64,000 nucleotides of DNA, from assembly GCF_900039485.1 (NCBI RefSeq), contig NZ_LN999833.1:310001-374000 (forward strand). Reading direction: 5' to 3'. This document shows, one piece after another, positions 6,973 to 40,530 of this stretch. Every line of letters begins with the position of its first letter. Positions within the stretch are counted from its first letter, which is position 1. Source of the stretch: Candidatus Doolittlea endobia (GTDB lineage Bacteria; Pseudomonadota; Gammaproteobacteria; Enterobacterales; Enterobacteriaceae). The position numbers and the translations under genes are program-made. The notes beneath the pieces are model-generated. The model was given only the letters and a program-made list of their open reading frames with translations, was not told the origin of the DNA and ran no database searches.

Positions 6973-7012
6973 GATCTTAAGGGTAGTGGTTTTGGCCAAT
7001 ATGGGAGAAGTT

Positions 7013-9586
7013 ATGCGTCTGGATCGTCTTACTAATAAATTCCAGCTTGCCCTCGCCGACGCCCAGTCGTTGGCTCTTGGGCGCGATAACCAATTTATCG
7101 AACCTTTACACGTTATGGCGGCACTACTAAAGCAAGAGGGGGGTACCGTACGTTCGCTGTTACAATCTGCCGGAGTTAATGTGATTACGTTTATCAACGC
7201 GGTAGAACAGGCCTGTGAGCGTTTACCGCAAGTAGAAGGTACCGACAACGACGTTCAGCCTTCTCTGGATCTTGTGCGTACACTAAACTTGTGCGACAAA
7301 CTAGCACAAAAACGCACAGACAGTTTTATCTCCTCCGAACTCTTCATTCTTGCATCGCTAGAGTCGCGCGGCACTTTATCCGGGCTACTGAGTTCGGCGG
7401 GCGCTACAAAAGCATCTATTACCAAGGCTATTGAGCAGATGCGCAGTGGTACGCAGGTGAATTTTCAGAATGCTGAAGATCAACGTCAGGCGCTGAAAAA
7501 ATTTACAATTAACCTGACCGAGCTTGCCACACAGGGAAAGCTAGATCCTGTTATCGGGCGTGATGAAGAAATTCGCCGTACCATCCAGGTGCTCCAGAGG
7601 CGCACTAAAAATAATCCGGTCCTTATCGGCAAACCAGGAGTGGGTAAAACCGCTATTGTTGAAGGGCTAGCGCAACGCATCGTCAATGGAGGAATCCCCG
7701 AAGGCTTAAAGAATAACCAGGTATTATCACTGGATATGAGCTCGCTTGTGGCGGGCGCAAAATATCGCGGTGAATTTGAAGAGCGCCTGAAAGGCGTTTT
7801 AAACGATTTGTCTAAACAAAAAAGCAATGTCATCTTATTTATCGATGAGTTGCATACTATGGTGGGCACCGGTAAAGCCGATGGTGCGATAGACGCTGGT
7901 AACATGCTCAAACCTGCGTTGGCTCGCGGCGAACTGCACTGCGTTGGTGCAACAACGCTTGATGAGTATCGCAAGTTTATCGAGAAGGATGCCGCGCTAG
8001 AGCGGCGTTTCCAGAAGGTATTTGTTTCTGAGCCGGATATAGAGAATACCATCGCTATTTTACGTGGTTTAAAAGAGCGTTACGAACTGCATCATCATGT
8101 GCAGATTACTGATCCGGCTATTGTTGCCGCCGCGACACTCTCCAATCGATATATTGCCGACAGGCAATTGCCTGATAAAGCTATTGATCTTATCGATGAA
8201 GCCGCATCCAGCATTTGTATGCAGATCAATTCTAAACCTGAAGAACTTGACCGGTTAGATCGTCGAATTATTCAATTGAAGTTAGAAAAGCAAGCGCTGA
8301 TGAAAGAATCAGATGACGCCAGTTTAAAGCGATTAGCGATGCTTAATAACGAATTAGCGGAAAAGGAACGCGATTACTCTAAACTTGAAGAGGAATGGAA
8401 AGCGGAAAAAGCTTCTTTGTCTGGCACCCAGCATTTGAAATCGGAATTAGAACAGGCAAAAATCTCAATAGAACAGGCACAACGCGTTGGGGATCTAGCG
8501 CGAATGTCTGAGCTTCAGTACGGTACAATTCCCGCGCTGAAAAAACAGCTAGCGGCGGTTTCGCAAGCTGAAGGAAAAAGTATGCGTTTACTGAAAAATC
8601 GCGTGACCGACCTTGAAGTTGCTGAAGTGTTAGCCCGTTGGACGGGCATCCCAGTTGCACGTATGTTAGAGAGCGAGCGAACAAAACTGCTGCGTATGGA
8701 ACAGGATTTACATCAGAGGGTCATTGGACAAAATGAAGCTGTAGAAGCGGTTTCGAATGCTATTCGTCGCAGCCGTGCTGGTTTAGCGGATCCTAACCGA
8801 CCTATTGGGTCCTTCATGTTTTTGGGACCGACCGGGGTAGGTAAAACAGAATTGTGCAAAGCATTAGCCATGTTCTTGTTTGATAGCGACCAGAATATGG
8901 TGCGTATCGATATGTCGGAATTCATGGAAAAACATTCAATATCTCGGTTGCTTGGCGCCCCTCCTGGGTATGTCGGTTATGAAGAAGGAGGATATTTAAC
9001 TGAGGCGGTGCGCCGCCGTCCTTATTCAGTCATTTTGTTAGATGAGATCGAAAAGGCACATCCCGATATTTTCAATATTCTTCTACAGGTATTAGATGAC
9101 GGCCGATTGACAGACGGCCAAGGTCGCACCGTGGATTTTCGTAATACCGTTGTCATAATGACCTCTAACTTAGGATCGGATATTATCCAAGAACGCTTCG
9201 GCCAGATAAACTATCAGGAAATGAAGGATTTGGTACTTAATACAGTTAGTCATCATTTTCGGCCGGAGTTTATTAACCGTGTGGATGAAGTTGTCGTGTT
9301 TCATCCGCTAAGCAGGGAATATATTGCCGAGATTGTTCAGATCCAATTGCAACGTCTGTATCAGCGGTTGGAGGAACGAGGTTATATTATGACTATCAGC
9401 GACGAGGCTTTGGCGCTAATAAGCAAATTTGGCTTCGACCCCATTTATGGGGCACGCCCGCTGAAACGCGCTATTCAGCAAAAGATCGAAAACCCGTTAT
9501 CGCAGCAGATCTTGTCCGGTCAGCTATTACCAGCTAAACCTATCAGACTGGATGTACAGAACGATAATATTGTCGCCAGACAGTAA
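7013..9586 (+). CDS. clpB: ATP-dependent disaggregase ClpB
   Basis: ClpB is a hexameric AAA+ chaperone that pulls polypeptides out of aggregates with DnaK. I chose the ATG at 7013, not an upstream GTG, because it follows GGGAGAAG and begins [20 protein letters not shown] as in E. coli. The product is 857 residues, the same as E. coli. An N-terminal Clp domain is followed by the first AAA+ module, the coiled-coil middle domain, and the second AAA+ module with Walker [10 protein letters not shown]. The first Walker A reads GKPGVGKT rather than the usual GEPGVGKT; residue 207 is Lys from AAA at 7631. The catalytic Lys and Thr are unchanged. All other key regions, including the GYVGYEEGG-type pore loop, are intact. 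Confidence 0.97.
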
Positions 9587-9625
9587 ATTTTACAGCAGCA
9601 AGCTAGGAAAATTATCCTGGTTTCC

Positions 9626-9643
9626 GCAACATAAGTATGTTGC
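9626..9643. other. Small inverted repeat after clpB
   Basis: GCAACATA and TATGTTGC pair perfectly around two bases. There is no following T run, so this is not a typical terminator, but it lies 40 bp after the clpB stop and could end or protect the transcript. Confidence 0.35.
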
Positions 9644-9651
9644 CTCATATT

Positions 9652-10020
9652 CTAGCCACGATCTCCAACTGGGCTGAGGACAATGACTAACTACACTGAA
9701 GTTGAAACAAGATTCAGGTACCTACTGAAGGTAGTAGTGAGGAATATGCATAATAAAGGAAGACCTGATATAACTAAGCCTCATATGTAAAAAAGGTTTT
9801 TATTTGAAAATATTTTCAACTTCAAAGCAGGTGGTAGTTTTCTGCTTGTAAACGGTTTGTCAAGTCCTACAGCTTCCGAGTTTAACCAGAAAACTCTGGG
9901 TTAGAAATTTCTAGAGAGACAAGAAGAAAGAATTCTAGATGTAACAGTGAATGTGTGTAACTCCAGAAGAATGCTTGTAAAGGCAGTCATAAACTTTATG
10001 GACACTTACTATAAAGTGCC
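9652..10020 (+). pseudogene. Fossil 16S rRNA gene (rrn next to clpB)
   Basis: The sequence aligns by eye with two blocks of enterobacterial 16S rRNA. The first, 9652 to about 9835, follows 16S from near E. coli position 250 (GATCCC.AGCTGG-like) through the GTAGTGAGGAATAT region. The second, about 9848-10020, follows 16S from the CGGTTTGT.AAGTC region through a GAATTC.AG.TGTA..GTGAA match. Many substitutions, and missing 5', middle and 3' parts, exclude function. In E. coli the rrnG operon follows clpB in the same orientation, which supports the reading. No 23S or 5S remains were recognised beyond it. Confidence 0.8.
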
Positions 10021-10365
10021 ATGGAAAATTGCCATCTTGTTGAGAGTGCGTCACCTGCCCCTGTCCGATATAACAATAAGGATTAGCTTTTATTTCAACG
10101 AAACAAGCTAAAACGGAATGCTCTTAGCAACGGTCACCAAGTCTCAAATTCTGTGGAGAGAGCCTCTTGTTAAACTCTAAGATACTGCATTAAAACAATG
10201 TCCTTCTCGACGCCGTCGCATTTGCTTTTCTAATAAACAGCGAGGGTTTTTGATGAATCCAAATAGCGATCAGAAATGTCGTATTAAAAATGTGCCAACA
10301 AAATTAATTTTTCCTATTTTCCAATGTCTGTCTTTGACTCGTAACAATAGCCATTAAGTGTAGAA

Positions 10366-10393
10366 ACGAAAACGCCACTTTTCACGTGGCGTT
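10366..10393 (-). terminator. Rho-independent terminator of rho
   Basis: On the minus strand, AACGCCAC and GTGGCGTT (10371-10378 with 10386-10393) form a strong stem. A T-rich tail (TTTTCG then TTTC) follows, just after the rho stop codon. Confidence 0.75.
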
Positions 10394-10409
10394 ACACGAG
10401 TTTTGTGAC

Positions 10410-11669
10410 TTACGAACGTTTCATCATAACGAAAAATTCTTCATTAGTTTTTGTCATCGCTAACTTATTTATTAAGAATTCCATTGCGTCGATTTCACTC
10501 ATTGGATGAATAATTTTTCGCAGGATCCACATTTTCTGTAGCTCTTCTTGAATGGTGAGCAATTCTTCTTTACGAGTCCCCGAACGATTGTAATCAATCG
10601 CTGGGAAAACGCGTTTCTCGGCGATTTTACGCGATAGGTGCAGTTCCATATTGCCCGTTCCCTTAAACTCTTCGTAAATTACTTCGTCCATTTTAGAGCC
10701 AGTATCGATAAGCGCGGTAGCGATGATGGTTAGGCTTCCACCTTCTTCCACATTGCGCGCTGCACCGAAAAAACGCTTAGGGCGATGTAAGGCATTAGCG
10801 TCCACACCACCAGTCAATACCTTGCCAGAAGCAGGCACTATAGTGTTATAAGCACGCGCCAGACGAGTAATAGAATCTAGCAGGACAATAACGTCTTTCT
10901 TATGTTCAACCAGACGTTTAGCTTTTTCAATCACCATTTCGGCGACCTGAACATGGCGAGATGCCGGCTCGTCAAAGGTTGAAGCGATCACTTCACCTTT
11001 TACCAAACGCTGCATTTCGGTTACTTCTTCCGGACGTTCGTCAATCAACAGAACCATTAAGACACAGTCAAGATGGTTATAAGCGATGCTTTGAGCAATA
11101 TTCTGAAGCAGCATGGTCTTACCAGCTTTCGGCGGCGCCACAATTAACCCACGCTGGCCAAGGCCTATAGGTGAAGCTAGATCTAAAACACGCGCGGTCA
11201 GATCTTCTGTGGAGCCGTTGCCGCGTTCCATGCGCAAACGTGAATTAGCATGCAGTGGCGTTAGGTTTTCAAATAAAATCTTGTTGCGTGCATTTTCCGG
11301 CTTATCATAGTTAACTTCGTTCACTTTTAGTAGCGCAAAGTAACGCTCTCCTTCTTTTGGTGGGCGAATCTTCCCTGAAATGGTGTCACCGGTGCGTAGG
11401 TTGAAGCGTCTGATCTGGCTAGGAGAAACATAGATATCATCTGGGCCTGCAAGGTAGGAGCTGTCGCTGGAACGGAGAAAACCAAATCCGTCCTGCAAAA
11501 TTTCCAGCACACCATCGCCGAAGATATCTTCGCCACTCTTAGCATGCTGCTTGAGGATAGCAAAGATAATGTCTTGTTTACGCATGCGGGCCAGGTTTTC
11601 TAGCCCCATATCCTCGCCGAGGATTACAAGTTCTGAAACCGGCGTATTTTTTAATGCGGTAAGGTTCAT
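10410..11669 (-). CDS. rho: Transcription termination factor Rho
   Basis: Rho is a hexameric RNA-dependent ATPase that ends transcription of untranslated RNA. The 419 residues equal the E. coli length and are collinear throughout. The N-terminal cold-shock-like RNA-binding domain includes DGFGFLRS. The Walker A-type motif APPKAGKT is followed by the [13 protein letters not shown] segment and the Q/R-loop regions. It is transcribed in the same direction as trxA, 1.1 kb upstream, as in enteric bacteria (trxA-rho). I did not recognise the short rho leader peptide rhoL in the 5' region. A clear terminator follows. Confidence 0.98.
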
Positions 11670-13087: not shown

Positions 13088-15653
13088 GTTTTACTCCACA
13101 GGAGTATTGCTATCTATCCTTGTAGCAATACTTAAAAACAAGCTGATTTTATTGTATACGTTTATAACGAATGGCTAACTCTACCACACTATGAGAAAAT
13201 ATACTTAACAATTGCAAGCCATCAATTAATTATTGAAGCGCTTTAAAACTTTGACAACTGTACGTTCATTCAAGCGCTGACTTTGTTCATTTCGTTCTAT
13301 CCACTCACCTGCCGTTTAAAGACAGCACACCAAGTAGCTCAGTTCCTGATCATGAAACCACCCGTGATCTGTCGGTAAAACTCTTCAGATTCCGCATATT
13401 AGTCTAGACAATCGACCTGAATGGAGTTAGCCTGCAACGTTGATATCTTATTAGGAACGCCGACAGTACGTAAATGCTAGATCAAATCACCTCAATATAA
13501 GCTATATAGGGATATAGGCTGTGCGTCTTCACTTTACAAAGATATCCGCTGACCCTGATACGCACTGTCGACGAATGTTTAAATATGCCGTTCTTCGCCA
13601 TTCTCGCTTATCGGATACGCCAGTTAGCCTTCAAGGTAATATGCATACGAGCATGTTGTAGTACACTGCATATAAGAAGAATTACTTTATTCCTTTAACA
13701 AAGAAAAATAATGCGTTACTTCAAACGCTTGTTGAGGGGGTAATATCTGATAGGCATATTACTTCGCCAATACTAAGCACTACCAAGATATCTCAAACTA
13801 CCCCTCACCGTTGATAAGCATTGCGTTGAATTGTTGACCGGCGATGTTTCTTAGAAACGGCGCTTATACATTTTAGTAATATTACCTATAGATATAGGGA
13901 CGACGGATATAATACAGCTACTTGCTGATCATAGATTCTTTTTATGACTAATGAAACCAACGATTACGAATTGGTATACCCGTATCGGTTGCACCAAACA
14001 CGACGGCTTCGAACGATTACGCCATTATCCAGTGTGCACAAAACATGATCTTAAGATAATCAAAAGTTGTATTAGCTATTAGATTTCCCTCAGTGTATAT
14101 AAATACATATCCTCGTTAAATAAATAAATTTAGATGTAGAGATTCTCTGCACGAGGACTAGAGTTTTTATCCAAAAATCAATTGCAGATAGCATAAAGCT
14201 TAATGTTGCAGCCATTATCTTCTGTGATGTAATAAGGACAAGTCTTGCTGGCAACAATTGCATACGAAACGAGTTTTTGATAGTATTGAACTGATGCATG
14301 GTTCGTTTATAACGGGTTTTGGACTTATTAACGAAGCAACATATACTTAGCGGATAAATCTATATAATTTAAAATTATATATTAACATCAAAAATTTAAC
14401 TTACAAACTATATTGTTTCCAAAATTAGATTGATGCATGACAAGGTAATTTGGTAAGCATGTCAAATGAAACCGCCAAACCAGGCGATAGGGTTCTACCA
14501 GATAGACTGCGACTTCATAAACAAAGCCGCTCAAGAAAGAAACGCTGCTTTATTTATTGTTAAATTTCATCTGCTAATATAGGTATGATCTCTATATCCG
14601 ATGTAAGAAGAGGCTCTAGCTAAGCGCTTTTATTCCTGGAGACGATTGTTTCATCGTACTGAAACTCAACGAAGAAGTCATGCAAGAAGCGATATGCACC
14701 CAGACGTCGGATAGTAATTTATTTCTATGCAATGATTTGTTGGCTAATTGTTTGATGCTGTTAATACAGTATTATTATAGTTATATAGAATAAACTAAGC
14801 CTTGTAGCGCGAATAAGAAAGCTTGCAAGCACGATTAATAAAAACAAGTAACTTTTTCTATCCTAGTCATATTAACTCCATACGCTATATACTCTATAAC
14901 AACTCTTCCTCTGACAGTCACATTTCTGCACACCGTCAGCCTGTATTCACCCGACCAGATAATCCGAGATACGGCACGTCTTATTTTACTATATCGCTCA
15001 GCACAAACTGGCGGATACAGTTGACGTTTTCCTGCGATTTATCGTAATTTTGTTAGAATGAAAATGTATTCATAACTACCTTTACAATGCGATCGTGCAT
15101 ACATCATGCTTGCATACGCTTTCGTGTTATTAGAAATAGTACAGCGCCTTGCTTCCCGCCAATATTGGCTGTGGTACTAACGCATCAACGGAGAGAGATA
15201 CGAGTAATGCAACTGAAGTGGACAAAATATAATCAAAACCATGATATCTTAGCTGAAGTGCAGGTTATTACAGTGTTCTCCATGCCTGTAAGCGCAGTGT
15301 GGTGTCAGGCGACAACCAAGTATCTTTCAGTAGTAAAAGCCATTTTAAGCACGTTCCGATAAAAAGGGATTGAACGCCTTAAAACAGATTAATACTAAAA
15401 ACGGCTTTTTTGTTGTAAGCAAAAGGGGTACTTTAATCAAGTACCAGCCAGGGATTTACCAAACTAAGACTGCCGCTGCTCACACTCTCGTCGCGGGTTC
15501 TGACAGACGACTCGTCAGAGCAGTATAATAAACTTCCTTCTCTTTTTAGGTAAAGGTTCCGACGCTTTCAGCCAGGCAATTGTGATAGGAATTTCGGATC
15601 ATAACGCCTTTGCAAGATAGCCTAAAAAAGCAAGTTATAAAATAGAACATAAA
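13088..15653. other. 2.6-kb spacer between trxA and nhaP2
   Basis: This long AT-rich stretch has no intact gene. rhlB and gppA would be expected beside trxA, but I could not align any frame to them. An open frame at 15087-15362 contains an ATG at 15207 preceded by GGAGAGAG, yet the predicted peptide is unfamiliar. A repeat R2 copy is at 14290-14360. Confidence 0.4.
14290..14360 (+). repeat. Dispersed repeat family R2, copy a
   Basis: CTGATGCATGG followed about 35 bases later by ATATACTTAGCGGATAAA. The same two blocks with similar spacing occur at 24866-24948 and 49951-50030. The second block alone is at 56253-56285 and the first alone near 39585. Confidence 0.5.
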
Positions 15654-35792: not shown

Positions 35793-38024
35793 AGATGTGC
35801 ACTCTTAAATAAATAAATTCGACCCCGTAAATTCAACTCTATTTTTACAACACAACTGCTTAAATCCAATAAGGCCATATAAACTGGCATACAACGATTA
35901 TATAAAAGGTTATATTTCTTAACAGTGTAATGATTTCTGTAGCTTCTGCAATCAGAAGAATAAAATAATAGTGAGCACTATCCTTTTTTGAGGACAGCGC
36001 ATCTCCTATGCCAAAGGATAATTATATCCTACTCCATCATCTTTACTACAACAAGGATAGATCACATCACGTAATTTTTAAAAATAAAAGGATAAAATTA
36101 TAAATCATAACCCAATGCTCAAAGCAGACGTAAAGCTGCCTCTATTTTCAGCTTGTCTCAGCCGCCGATGTGTAATTATTCCATAAAAGCTTGACAGCAA
36201 AGACAGTGACTCTTACCGACAAGTTAATTGCGAATGCCGTTGCTGACTTGCTTAGCAATCGCATCCTGTCGAACAGATTATTGTTATGTAAGTTTGTTGT
36301 TCTTAATAGACGATATCTTTTTAGTCATGCCGCAAGTGTCGAGAAAAGATTTCGTCATGAGTTTAAAAATAAGCATTAGTTATTTTTTGTTAAATAAATG
36401 GCGAACTCTTGTTAACAAAGAGAAGATGTTTCACATCTGGTTATAATTCTCTTGGTGTTGATTACTAGTAGTCTCGCTATTCACAGCATATCGCTGACGC
36501 AGGCTTCTTTCTTGATTTTTCGGCGATGCCCTGCCTCAAGGAGGCTTACAATAGATTTGTATACTTCTTCGGTGTTTGAAGGTCAGGACGCAAACCAGTC
36601 ATTTTGCGTGATCACTGTCAGTTCATTAATACGTGTACTTCTTATCCGGCACCGTGGTTAAGTGCGCAGTTATCGTATCGCTTCCAAAGAAGCTGGCCCT
36701 AATCTGTCCAGGGGGAACTTAGACAAAATCGTTTTTACGCGTAGCTAGCTAGCGCCTATATCTGAGGGGCCAAACCGCTAAGTCAATTCATTATAATGCT
36801 GCTGGGAATTTTTCCGGTAACAGTGGTTTCCCACGGCTAGTATCGATGATACCCTGTTAAGAGGTTGAAAGTCACTCTCTTTCCCGCCAAAGCTCAAATT
36901 ATCGTTGTACAGGCCATTCACAAACCACATGAAGTCTACCGGCGCTTTGAAGTCTACCGGCGCTTTTACCATAGTGATTGACACCAGTGTTCTGCTACGT
37001 CATTGCCACGCTGCAGACAAAGAATAGTTTGGAGTCTTCAAACCCGCCATTATGTCAATGCCAACGACGATTGTCGTTCAGATCGTTAACGCATGCCAAA
37101 TCAAATTTATCACACAATACCAACAGGCCGGTCATTGCCAATGCTGATTATTGACGATAATCTGACCGATAGTCAAAATATGAGCTTCGTTAAAACTATA
37201 ATGTTTCATACACTACCGCGGTATCCCGAAGTACCGAGTTTTATCGTTTAAGCACTATTACCCGACTCCGAAAATACGTAATATTGCGAAGTTAATTGGC
37301 CATATTAATTAAATTACTCTACTGAGCGAACTGCCCTGCGCTGGAACAATTAACCATCGGTGCTTCTCCGTTAGTAGTCAATAATGTCGCAAACTTTTAT
37401 CAGTGAAGTCAGGAGCTCGCATTGCCCTCAGTCATACTTTGTGTACAGTATTGATGTATCAGAGACTTATTTGGTTTTTCTGGTAGCACGGTGTTTCTCT
37501 ATCATCGACCAAATACCTTATAGTGTTTCAGTCGTGACATCAAAAATGGTGGCAATCCTAATTTGCAAAGTTAAGTTGTCTTTCCACTGCTTAGTTTCAC
37601 GAAGCACATTTAATAATATCGAACTTTTGTGAAGATCACTCTCGATCTTGCCATAATGCTATCTATGTTTTCATAGTGCATAGATTCTATTAGCTAACAA
37701 ATAATATACAGTTAATTCATTAAATAAATCTGAAAAGACTGTACTCAACAGCACCAGATGTCAATATTATTGTGAATGATGTCCCGTATGTGTCAAAGGC
37801 AAGGTGCATTTTCTTATGAGGTCTTATTACAGATAATAAAATCTAATCACGAATTAAAGACAAACATTCGTTGTTCTTTTTTAGAAAGAAAAAATATAAA
37901 AGCAGCTTTACACCTTATATTTGATTAAATTACTCATTATGTTTATATAACCTTTATCCACCGTGACAGAGCTGACTCTTATAGGCTCGCTCCTGACAGC
38001 AGAATCAGACGTTTTTTGGCGATA
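35793..38024. other. 2.2-kb decayed spacer
   Basis: This long spacer between tldD and the purD fragment has no intact gene. The minus-strand frame at 36778-36984 is of unknown origin and contains a perfect tandem duplication. Most of purD should lie here if not deleted, but I could not align it. Confidence 0.35.
36931..36966. repeat. Perfect 18-bp tandem duplication
   Basis: GAAGTCTACCGGCGCTTT occurs twice in direct succession (36931-36948 and 36949-36966). It looks like replication slippage in non-coding DNA. On the minus strand it would encode KAPVDF twice, but no gene is recognised. Confidence 0.8.
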
Positions 38025-38124
38025 CGCGATACTGGCATTTCCAGGCGAGACATAGACGTTGTCGGTAAGTGTTGATTTTGTGGCTTTCTAACGTCCACCA
38101 TTGCCGATAATTAAAATATTTCAT
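38025..38124 (-). pseudogene. purD: 5' fragment of purD (GAR synthetase)
   Basis: A minus-strand ATG at 38124 lies 12 bp after the purH stop. After a one-base shift the sequence reads ILIIGNGGR, the PurD N-terminus (KILVIGNGGREHALAWK). NVYVSPGNASIA then matches VFVAPGNAGTA. The rest of this gene of about 430 codons was not found. PurD ligates glycine to phosphoribosylamine in purine synthesis. Confidence 0.75.
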
Positions 38125-38136
38125 AGAACTTCTAGT

Positions 38137-39355
38137 TTAATGACGGAAATGGTGCATATGGGCAAAGATCATGCTCATTTCATATTCATTGGCGGTAGTG
38201 ATGACTTCGTTATCGCGAATCGATCCACATGACTGAATGACGCAATGTACGCCTATCTCCCCGTAGCATCAATACTGTCGCCTGCGTCCACCGTCTTAAT
38301 TTCAACAATTTTTGCTGAATAAGCGCGGCTATTTGCCCGTCGCCGATACCAACGGCACGTTGGTCGCGAGCGTAAACAATAGCGTTGGATTTGACGAATT
38401 TAGTTATTTTCCATCAGGAAAATGCATCGCGCATTTCTTATTCGCTCGGCTGGCACTCGCTAACCACACTCAAATCCTGCGGACTTACCATGCCGGCATC
38501 TCAATCTTGCACTAACAGGTCGTCGTTAACCCATTTGAAATCCAATTCAAGTAACGGCTTCTGTAAATTGCACAAGCTAGTATCCGAATATTTGCTTGCT
38601 GACTAGTACAGTCAGAACATCGTCATTAATCGTCGATGTAATGATGACCTCAATAAGTTGACGACTGATAGCAGTACCAGCAGTAGCCGGTTGAAAGCAA
38701 TAATTCCGCCAAACGTGGACGTCGGGTCGGTCTGGTAGGCACGATTATAGGCGGCTAGCAGGTTGCTTTGTATCATTATGATAGGCCGGTACCTGGTTGC
38801 CAAAATAGTTTTTAATCGTACCGTCATAGACAGCGATGTATTCAAACGCCTGAATAGAGCGAGGTAAAACGGATCTCCAAGGTGAGATCGACCCGTTGTC
38901 TCGATCCATTTCCGAGACAATTGAGGAATAGTCGGCGCTATCAACTACAACAACAACATCTTTATAATTTTCAGTGGCAGAACGCACTATTGTCAAGCAC
39001 CGATATCAATGTTTTCCACCGCCTTTTTCTCGGGTATATTTCGCACGTATCACCGTAGCAGAAAATGGTATTGGGACAGCGTCACACTTGCTCATAATTG
39101 CGTCATCGATATTACGCCGACCAGGATCCCGCCAATGTACTTTGGGATGCAGTGTTTTAATCCGCCAGTCCATTATTTAGGAAATTCTGTATAGTCGAAC
39201 ACTGCGGTAACTGGTAGACCCGCTTCAGTCAAAAAACGAACTGTACCACTGGTAGTAATTAGCTCAACACCGCGTTCAAATAGCGACTTTATCAGAATAT
39301 CGGTTTTATCAGAAATGCTAAGAAGCGCGCGACGAATAGGTCATAGTAATTGCAT
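38137..39355 (-). pseudogene. purH: Decayed purH (AICAR transformylase/IMP cyclohydrolase)
   Basis: The minus strand from ATG 39355 to TAA 38137 retraces PurH in several frames. [16 protein letters not shown] and [19 protein letters not shown] come first. [48 protein letters not shown] and others follow. The end is [19 protein letters not shown] then HMHHFRH. It is about 370 bp shorter than a normal gene (about 1,590 bp), with frameshifts and stops. PurH performs the last two steps of IMP synthesis. The purH-purD order and divergence from an rRNA operon match E. coli rrnE. Confidence 0.95.
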
Positions 39356-39711
39356 AGCAAATAACCTTTGATACGATAAATAAGAATAATAACGATGCAG
39401 ATCGTACTGATTAACAGTATAATGTTTTGTCGTGCTCATTCGACCCAAATGAAATTACTTGAATTGTAGAGAAAATGTTTTCACAATATTTACTAGATTT
39501 AACTTTGTGTTGATAAATTTGTGCAAACTATATATAAAGTTATTTTTTGTGTAAAATTAGCAAATAAACAATGAAAATATCAGTTGATACATGGCTAAAA
39601 CAATCTATAATTCACTTCTATATCTGACCTTTTGCTTTGGTGAAGAGGCCTATATGACGTGAAGGACAGCATATAGACGCATCGTTCGCTAATTGAATTC
39701 TAATTGCATGG

Positions 39712-39740
39712 TGCTCTTTAAAAATTTGTCAGACAATTTT
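39712..39740 (+). promoter_or_regulatory. rrn leader boxA remnant
   Basis: TGCTCTTTAAAAATTTGTCA followed by GACAATTTT matches the conserved rRNA leader antitermination segment of enteric bacteria (TGCTCTTTAACAATTTATCA, GACAATC). It lies 70 bp before the 16S fossil and shows that this was a true rrn operon. Confidence 0.75.
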
Positions 39741-39783
39741 TATGGATACTCACAAGAGTATATCAACACACTTAAATATTAAA

Positions 39784-40210
39784 TTTTGAAAAGTGATGGT
39801 TTAAATTAAACTCTAGAGGCAGATCTAATATATGCAAATCAAACTGTGGTAAGAAGCAACTTATGTTTGTTTCGGCAGGCAGAGGACGAATGGAGGGGTC
39901 TAACTAGTAGAGAGATAACTGTTGGGTGGTAGTTAATACTTGCTTAATATCGAGATACTGAAGTGGAACTTTCAGACCTCATCTTGTCGAATGAACCCAG
40001 ATAAGACGAACTAGTAGATGGGTTACAGTTTGCCTCGTGCCGACATCACTTGGTATAAAGTGTATTTGATACTCTTAAATTGGTATCTCGCAGGTGTAAC
40101 GGTAAAATGTGCAGACTGAGTTCTGAGCTGAGGATCGCAGAGGGGTATCATATGCATGAAGAACGATTGTCTCTTTATAATTCGTGGCAATACATGGGAT
40201 CACCTCCTTG
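39784..40210 (+). pseudogene. Shrunken 16S rRNA fossil (rrn next to purH)
   Basis: Only about 430 of 1,540 bases remain. They follow 16S in order: the 5' end (TTGAAAAGTG for TTGAAGAGTT); GCAAATCAAACTG near position 60; GTAGTTAATACTTGC.TAA near 170; ACTAGTAGATGGG near 240; ATTTGATACT and CAGGTGTAACGGTAAAATG near 660-700; and the 3' end. The last 13 bases, GGATCACCTCCTT at 40197-40209, are unchanged and include the anti-Shine-Dalgarno sequence. Large internal deletions exclude function. The ITS continues beyond (ACACAGATTATTTGATA at about 40232-40248). Confidence 0.9.
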
Positions 40211-40275
40211 CCTCAGTGGTACCTTAAGTAAGGTGTCGACACAGATTATTTGATAATTGTAAAAAGTAAGAAAAA

Positions 40276-40340
40276 CCTGCTATGGGTAGATACCTGAAAG
40301 TGATTAGAACAAACTCCAAGGGTAAAGAGAACTGTGTACG
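40276..40340 (+). pseudogene. Possible tRNA-Ile(GAU) relic in the ITS
   Basis: GTGATTAGAACAAACTCC then AAGGGTAAAG resembles the D-arm to anticodon-arm part of ribosomal-operon tRNA-Ile (GTGGTTAGAGCGCACCCC, gap, AAGGGTGAGG). It lies where tRNA-Ile normally precedes tRNA-Ala. The anticodon and acceptor halves are gone. Confidence 0.45.
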
Positions 40341-40454
40341 ACCGACAGGTGGCTGTATGTTGCAAGCAAAGTTGAACTACATGTACAAGCTTGTACAGGC
40401 ATGAAGTAATTAACGTGAGTAGAGAAGTGACGGCATATGTAAAGTGAACAACTT

Positions 40455-40530
40455 GGGGCTATAGCTCAGCTGGGAGAGCGCCTGTTTTGCACACAGGAGG
40501 TCAGCGGTTCAATCCCGCTTAGCTCCACCA
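40455..40530 (+). tRNA. tRNA-Ala(UGC), survivor of a dead rrn operon
   Basis: The complete cloverleaf begins GGGGCTATAGCTCAG and has anticodon TGC, the G3-U70 identity pair and an encoded CCA at 40528-40530. Compared with E. coli alaT, the last pair of the anticodon stem has changed from C-G to T-A and one T-stem pair from T-A to A-T. In each case both sides changed, so pairing is kept. This is strong evidence of continued selection although the 16S before it is destroyed and no 23S follows. Confidence 0.95.

Follow-up and report, generated by a model that had tools for sequence, protein, structure and literature searches.

The DNA analyzed here, a 64-kb stretch that we call the window (C1:310001-374000), belongs to a shrunken genome, apparently that of an insect symbiont, with 846,562 bases in two contigs (834,734 and 11,828). 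In the window, the intergenic spacer that separates clpB from the convergent gene rho contains two blocks that match 16S rRNA; together these blocks are designated relic D.

6986 to 9586, + strand: clpB, intact (866-aa ORF), anchor on the 5' side of the lost operon
9652 to 9838, + strand: block 1 of relic D, 16S rRNA 272-461 (nhmmer, blastn and shuffles)
9852 to 9978, + strand: block 2 of relic D, 16S rRNA 585-723 (nhmmer; in-place alignment compared with shuffles)
9979 to 10370, no strand: remainder of the clpB-rho spacer, without a significant match to 16S, 23S, 5S, tRNA or leader
10371 to 10393, - strand: terminator-like hairpin of rho
10410 to 11669, - strand: rho, convergent with clpB

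The whole window was searched with an nhmmer profile constructed from the genome's own 16S and that of E. coli and, separately, with a profile of 12 sequences. Using the first profile, block 1 is located at 9654-9838 (16S 274-461) with an E-value of 9.2e-16 and block 2 at 9852-9978 (16S 585-723) with an E-value of 0.049; using the second, the E-values are 1.3e-15 and 0.017, respectively. Block 1 is also found by blastn (E 2.7e-15) and shares 67% identity with the genome's own 16S. The Smith-Waterman score of 9587-10409 with the own 16S is 564, as compared with 302 ± 24 (maximum 373) for 500 dinucleotide shuffles and 224-308 for nine control stretches of equal length from the same window; for block 2 placed in register the score is 186, as compared with 21 ± 19 (maximum 97), and none of 1000 shuffles reaches it.

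A sequence-only reading of this DNA had proposed that the spacer aligns in order with two blocks of 16S, a claim to be checked with nhmmer, the intact 16S and shuffled sequence, and the collinear match and the shuffles bear it out. Both of its blocks are real; their boundaries are 16S 272-461 and 585-723 instead of roughly 250-430 and 575-775, and the relic ends at 9978 instead of 10020 (the extension through 9979-10030 is not significant, with 259 of 1000 shuffles reaching its score). By the same type of comparison, 16S similarity is not significant in 10031-10370, and remnants of 23S, 5S, tRNA-Glu, tRNA-Asp and yafD, sought from 9979 to rho, do not rise above shuffles. At relic D no rrn leader is detectable and no rrn-type promoter is kept; the missing leader might reflect only a chance deletion. 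Approximately 310 of the 1542 positions of 16S are retained, and the Rfam SSU model gives no match to relic D, even with a relaxed E-value and the spacer searched alone, so routine RNA annotation would miss it too. With these losses and 67% identity, relic D is too incomplete and too altered to function as a 16S rRNA.

In E. coli, the clpB stop codon is followed after 440 bp, on the same strand, by a complete rRNA operon. In G004, a close relative that is apparently Sodalis praecaptivus HS and whose ClpB is 89% identical to the one here, the order is clpB, 16S, tRNA-Glu, 23S, 5S, tRNA-Asp, yafD and the operon is intact; 16S also follows clpB in an intact operon in G001. Among the 35 named ClpB loci examined, 16S is located within 0.7 kb of clpB in six, and the contig ends within 0.6 kb of clpB in a further 15, as is usual for assemblies at repeated operons. 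Together, these observations identify an rRNA operon as ancestral at clpB. The sequence-only reading had equated the site with E. coli rrnG in both position and orientation; this holds for the clpB side, where in both genomes 16S is 3' of clpB on the same strand, but on the other side the flank is rho (opposite strand) here, tRNA-Asp and yafD in G004, and kgtP in E. coli. The differing 3' flanks point to operon exchange or rearrangement on that side. Compared with E. coli rrnG, clpB is upstream on the same strand but the kgtP-side flank is missing: only the clpB side is conserved with E. coli, and the operon is dead here. Because relic D is collinear with 16S, on the same strand, and located where relatives hold an intact operon, the best reading is that it is a 16S rRNA pseudogene that is decaying in place after clpB, as the sequence-only reading had suggested.

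The window contains a second decayed 16S (39794-40212) that had escaped the sequence-only reading. This relic C is part of a larger operon remnant, locus C, that spans 39584-40530; the remnant and its flanks are as follows:

38025 to 39376, - strand: purH pseudogene, 67-69% DNA identity, in order, to the purH flank of the purH-adjacent operon of G004
39584 to 39611, + strand: P1-like rrn promoter, TTGATA-16-TATAAT, 11 of 12 consensus matches
39713 to 39796, + strand: rrn leader with boxA (GCTCTTTAA), 80% identity to the G004 rrn leader
39794 to 40036/40054, + strand: relic C, 16S 17 to 274/291, 63% identity (nhmmer E 1.2e-17, blastn E 2e-14)
40055 to 40196, + strand: weak 16S similarity of relic C, about 629-786 (nhmmer E 0.45); the rest of 16S is deleted
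40197 to 40286, + strand: 16S 3' end (GGATCACCTCCTT) and start of the spacer, 79% identity to the matching stretch of the G004 purH-adjacent operon
40455 to 40530, + strand: tRNA-Ala(TGC), intact, the sole copy in the genome
40652 to 40965, + strand: ndk pseudogene (score 487 vs 141, z 17)

The purH flank is the 5' flank of the lost operon; in G004 the operon that adjoins purH is intact. The P1 region scores 147 with the P1 of that G004 operon, as compared with 59 ± 8.5 for shuffles (none of 300 reaches it). The 16S 3' end proper is at 40197-40212, and the intervening weak segment (40055-40196) has a local 16S score of 153 vs 109 (z 3.8; one shuffle scores higher). The tRNA-Ile that formerly preceded tRNA-Ala is gone. 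The ndk pseudogene is located between tRNA-Ala and rlmN, and in G004 ndk precedes rlmN; this order indicates that locus C lost 23S and 5S through a deletion that extends on the right to the ndk pseudogene. The leader has diverged less than the 16S body (19% of 67 sites vs 30% of 237), a difference that is only suggestive and is partly an effect of segment choice. A 16S processing stem kept for the benefit of tRNA-Ala was also considered and rejected, the candidate being no better than shuffles. Two stretches of the window (36000-39000 and 13100-15600) are long and without intact genes, which is unusual in so small a genome; they likely contain other pseudogenes.

Elsewhere, the genome encodes one 16S, one 23S and one 5S. 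The sole intact 16S is at C1:481127-482668 (locus A), 41 kb from the 23S (locus B) and on the opposite strand; the genome therefore has an unlinked (split) rRNA operon, that is, the 16S is far from the 23S and is not co-transcribed with it. The order in locus A (C1:481 kb) is P1, P2, boxA, 16S, tRNA-Ile, 330 bp, tRNA-Trp; in locus B (C1:523-527 kb) it is P2, boxA, ~200 bp, spacer, tRNA-Glu, 23S, 5S, tRNA-Asp. Sequence comparison identifies leader homologues at A, B and C. In locus B the leader matches break off 86 bp upstream of the 16S start and pick up again 12 bp beyond the 16S end, so the ~200 bp stand where 16S was; the 16S processing stem is still there for the most part, with both of its arms (-35 vs -22.6 ± 3.8; 1 of 300 shuffles). 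Viewed over C1:516000-532000, the 16S is cut almost exactly out of the 23S operon, leaving P2, boxA and both processing-stem arms. The genome has 41 tRNA genes, with Ile-GAT, Ala-TGC, Glu-TTC, Asp-GTC and Trp-CCA each present as a single copy; the only copy of tRNA-Lys(CTT) that we observed is on the 11.8-kb second contig (C2:9355-9427). Locus A is mixed: its spacer is of the Ile type, yet at the end with tRNA-Trp it matches an operon of the Glu type in G004. Recombination between operons or conversion of the spacer has therefore contributed as well, and two ancestral operons at locus A cannot be told apart. A possible relic past tRNA-Ile in locus A (z 3.4 to the Ile-Ala spacer) is weak and is not claimed. 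Genome-wide blastn with 16S and 23S detects no more relics beyond weak matches; relic D itself escaped this search, and further remnants of the approximately seven ancestral operons may therefore have gone undetected.

The separation of 16S and 23S could have a simpler origin: a last single operon may have been split by inversion or recombination between 16S and 23S, with the relics as unrelated bystanders. The opposite strands, the 41 kb separation and the resemblance of locus A to a recombinant of two operon types are in its favor. However, locus B has an rrn leader, an excised 16S and the spacer of that 16S upstream of its 23S, and the 16S in locus A has a leader of its own; one broken operon would have one leader, but A and B each have one. 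This origin is therefore largely disfavored, and we regard it as unlikely.

Relic D might instead be a piece of the intact 16S that was copied or transposed to this site and not an in-place remnant, which would fit with its holding just the middle of 16S, with neither leader nor 3' end. However, it occupies the place and strand at which E. coli, G004 and G001 have their intact clpB-linked operon, and its blocks are collinear over 16S 272-723 on the + strand and closer together than in 16S, a pattern expected from deletions; with synteny already disfavoring it, this origin is very improbable.

The substitutions in relic D provide a separate view. Relative to the 16S of G004, 33% of 311 aligned sites differ and the G+C content has decreased from 0.55 to 0.37; the intact 16S of the genome differs from that of G004 by 2.9%. 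Substitutions occur at 29% of the positions that are invariant among 12 bacterial 16S genes and at 42% of the variable positions (P 0.14); a second comparison gives 30% and 39% (P 0.32). As expected for a pseudogene, relic D evolves without detectable constraint, in a sample small enough that constraint is not strictly excludable; by this substitution test, loss of constraint is counted for both relic D and relic C. These values also bear on the idea that relic D encodes a functional 16S-derived RNA (a fragmented rRNA or a small regulatory RNA), which is prompted by the two stretches that are still recognizable when the remainder is gone. An intact 16S is present in the genome, the invariant positions are substituted at 29-30%, the G+C content has fallen and an rrn-type promoter is not kept, making a functional RNA exceedingly improbable. 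A chance or low-complexity alignment, for which only the weakness of block 2 by itself over the whole window (E 0.05) could speak, is already refuted by block 1 (E 9e-16) and by shuffles and nine control stretches with far lower scores.

The sequence-only reading had described the 16S pseudogene as a dated record of operon loss; this is too strong, because the LogDet distance of 0.43 between relic D and the 16S of G004 is a relative distance only, with no clock available. The four-fold sites of clpB and rlmN give a LogDet of 1.0, a value that spans both lineages and different base compositions and so provides no date for the relics, although these would in principle be datable. Relic C (30%) and relic D (33%) are similarly diverged, so the order of the two deaths cannot be told.

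The observed relics, synteny, single-copy RNAs and leader homology make it very probable that an ancestor with several rRNA operons left at least four remnants, relic D among them, and that its redundant operons decayed piecewise with each keeping its unique RNAs. G004, with seven 16S genes/operons, has two classes of operon, with either tRNA-Glu or tRNA-Ile and tRNA-Ala between 16S and 23S; two of its operons carry an extra 5S. In the proposed route, growth demand would have fallen and approximately seven operons of these two classes would have become redundant; random deletions would then have trimmed them until each part left was unique. Locus A would have been retained for 16S, tRNA-Ile and tRNA-Trp, locus B for tRNA-Glu, 23S, 5S and tRNA-Asp, and locus C for tRNA-Ala; relic D would have supplied no unique RNA, so nothing would have held the clpB copy. 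Leaders would have persisted before RNAs that were still needed (P1, P2 and boxA in A; P2, boxA and most of the stem in B; P1 and boxA in C), and these old leaders may still be in use. The spacer tRNAs of the different classes would have prevented collapse to one intact operon, thereby unlinking 16S from 23S.

Extended to reduced gammaproteobacterial genomes in general, we tentatively suggest that spacer tRNAs could drive the unlinking of 16S and 23S: with Glu and Ile+Ala classes, at least two operons would have to persist partially, and whichever rRNA gene was redundant in each would decay at random, leaving relics such as those described here, with a lone tRNA-Ala perhaps still read from the old P1 through a dead 16S. 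In support, G010 has 16S-Ile-Ala at one site and Glu-23S at another, and in G008 Glu-23S is separate from 16S; however, 16S-Ile-Ala-23S-5S is still linked in G007, so spacer tRNAs do not force unlinking. With the four remnants of this genome, reciprocal decay and the role of the spacer tRNAs become directly testable in Sodalis-allied symbionts.

Stepwise loss of rRNA operons has been described for SOPE (Sodalis pierantonius) in comparison with strain HS (Oakeson et al. 2014, PMC3914690); SOPE has two complete operons and isolated 16S genes at ancestral positions and retains all three spacer tRNAs (PMC3914690). As here, operons were deleted in place in a Sodalis-allied symbiont and the Glu and Ile+Ala spacer tRNAs were kept; unlike SOPE, the present genome has no complete operon, its single-copy RNAs are distributed over three remnants, and two 16S genes have decayed to 63-67% identity. 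By analogy, this genome is best read as a late variant of a known process whose early stage is SOPE. Unlinked 16S and 23S are found in Buchnera, Wolbachia and other symbionts (review PMC7761764); these symbionts share with this genome a single 16S and a single 23S-5S in separate transcription units, but how the split arose cannot be seen in them, whereas in this genome the ancestral operons are marked by decayed copies and by remnants of leaders. In Profftia, an adelgid symbiont, the one 16S likewise stands alone and 23S and 5S are neighbors; in the parts of that report consulted, relic operons are not described (PMC8857208). In the literature searched, we found nothing on relic operons of the present organism.

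The unlinked state itself is common; the route to it is usually erased in symbionts, and here four remnants at identifiable ancestral sites reveal which pieces disappeared from each operon and which stayed. Because such relics escape protein-based as well as covariance-model annotation, the loss of rRNA operons is under-recorded. In another reduced relative (G013, C4 6900-7920, - strand), we observed a younger 16S relic with internal deletions and 73-84% identity, adjoining contigs that suggest more intact 16S copies.
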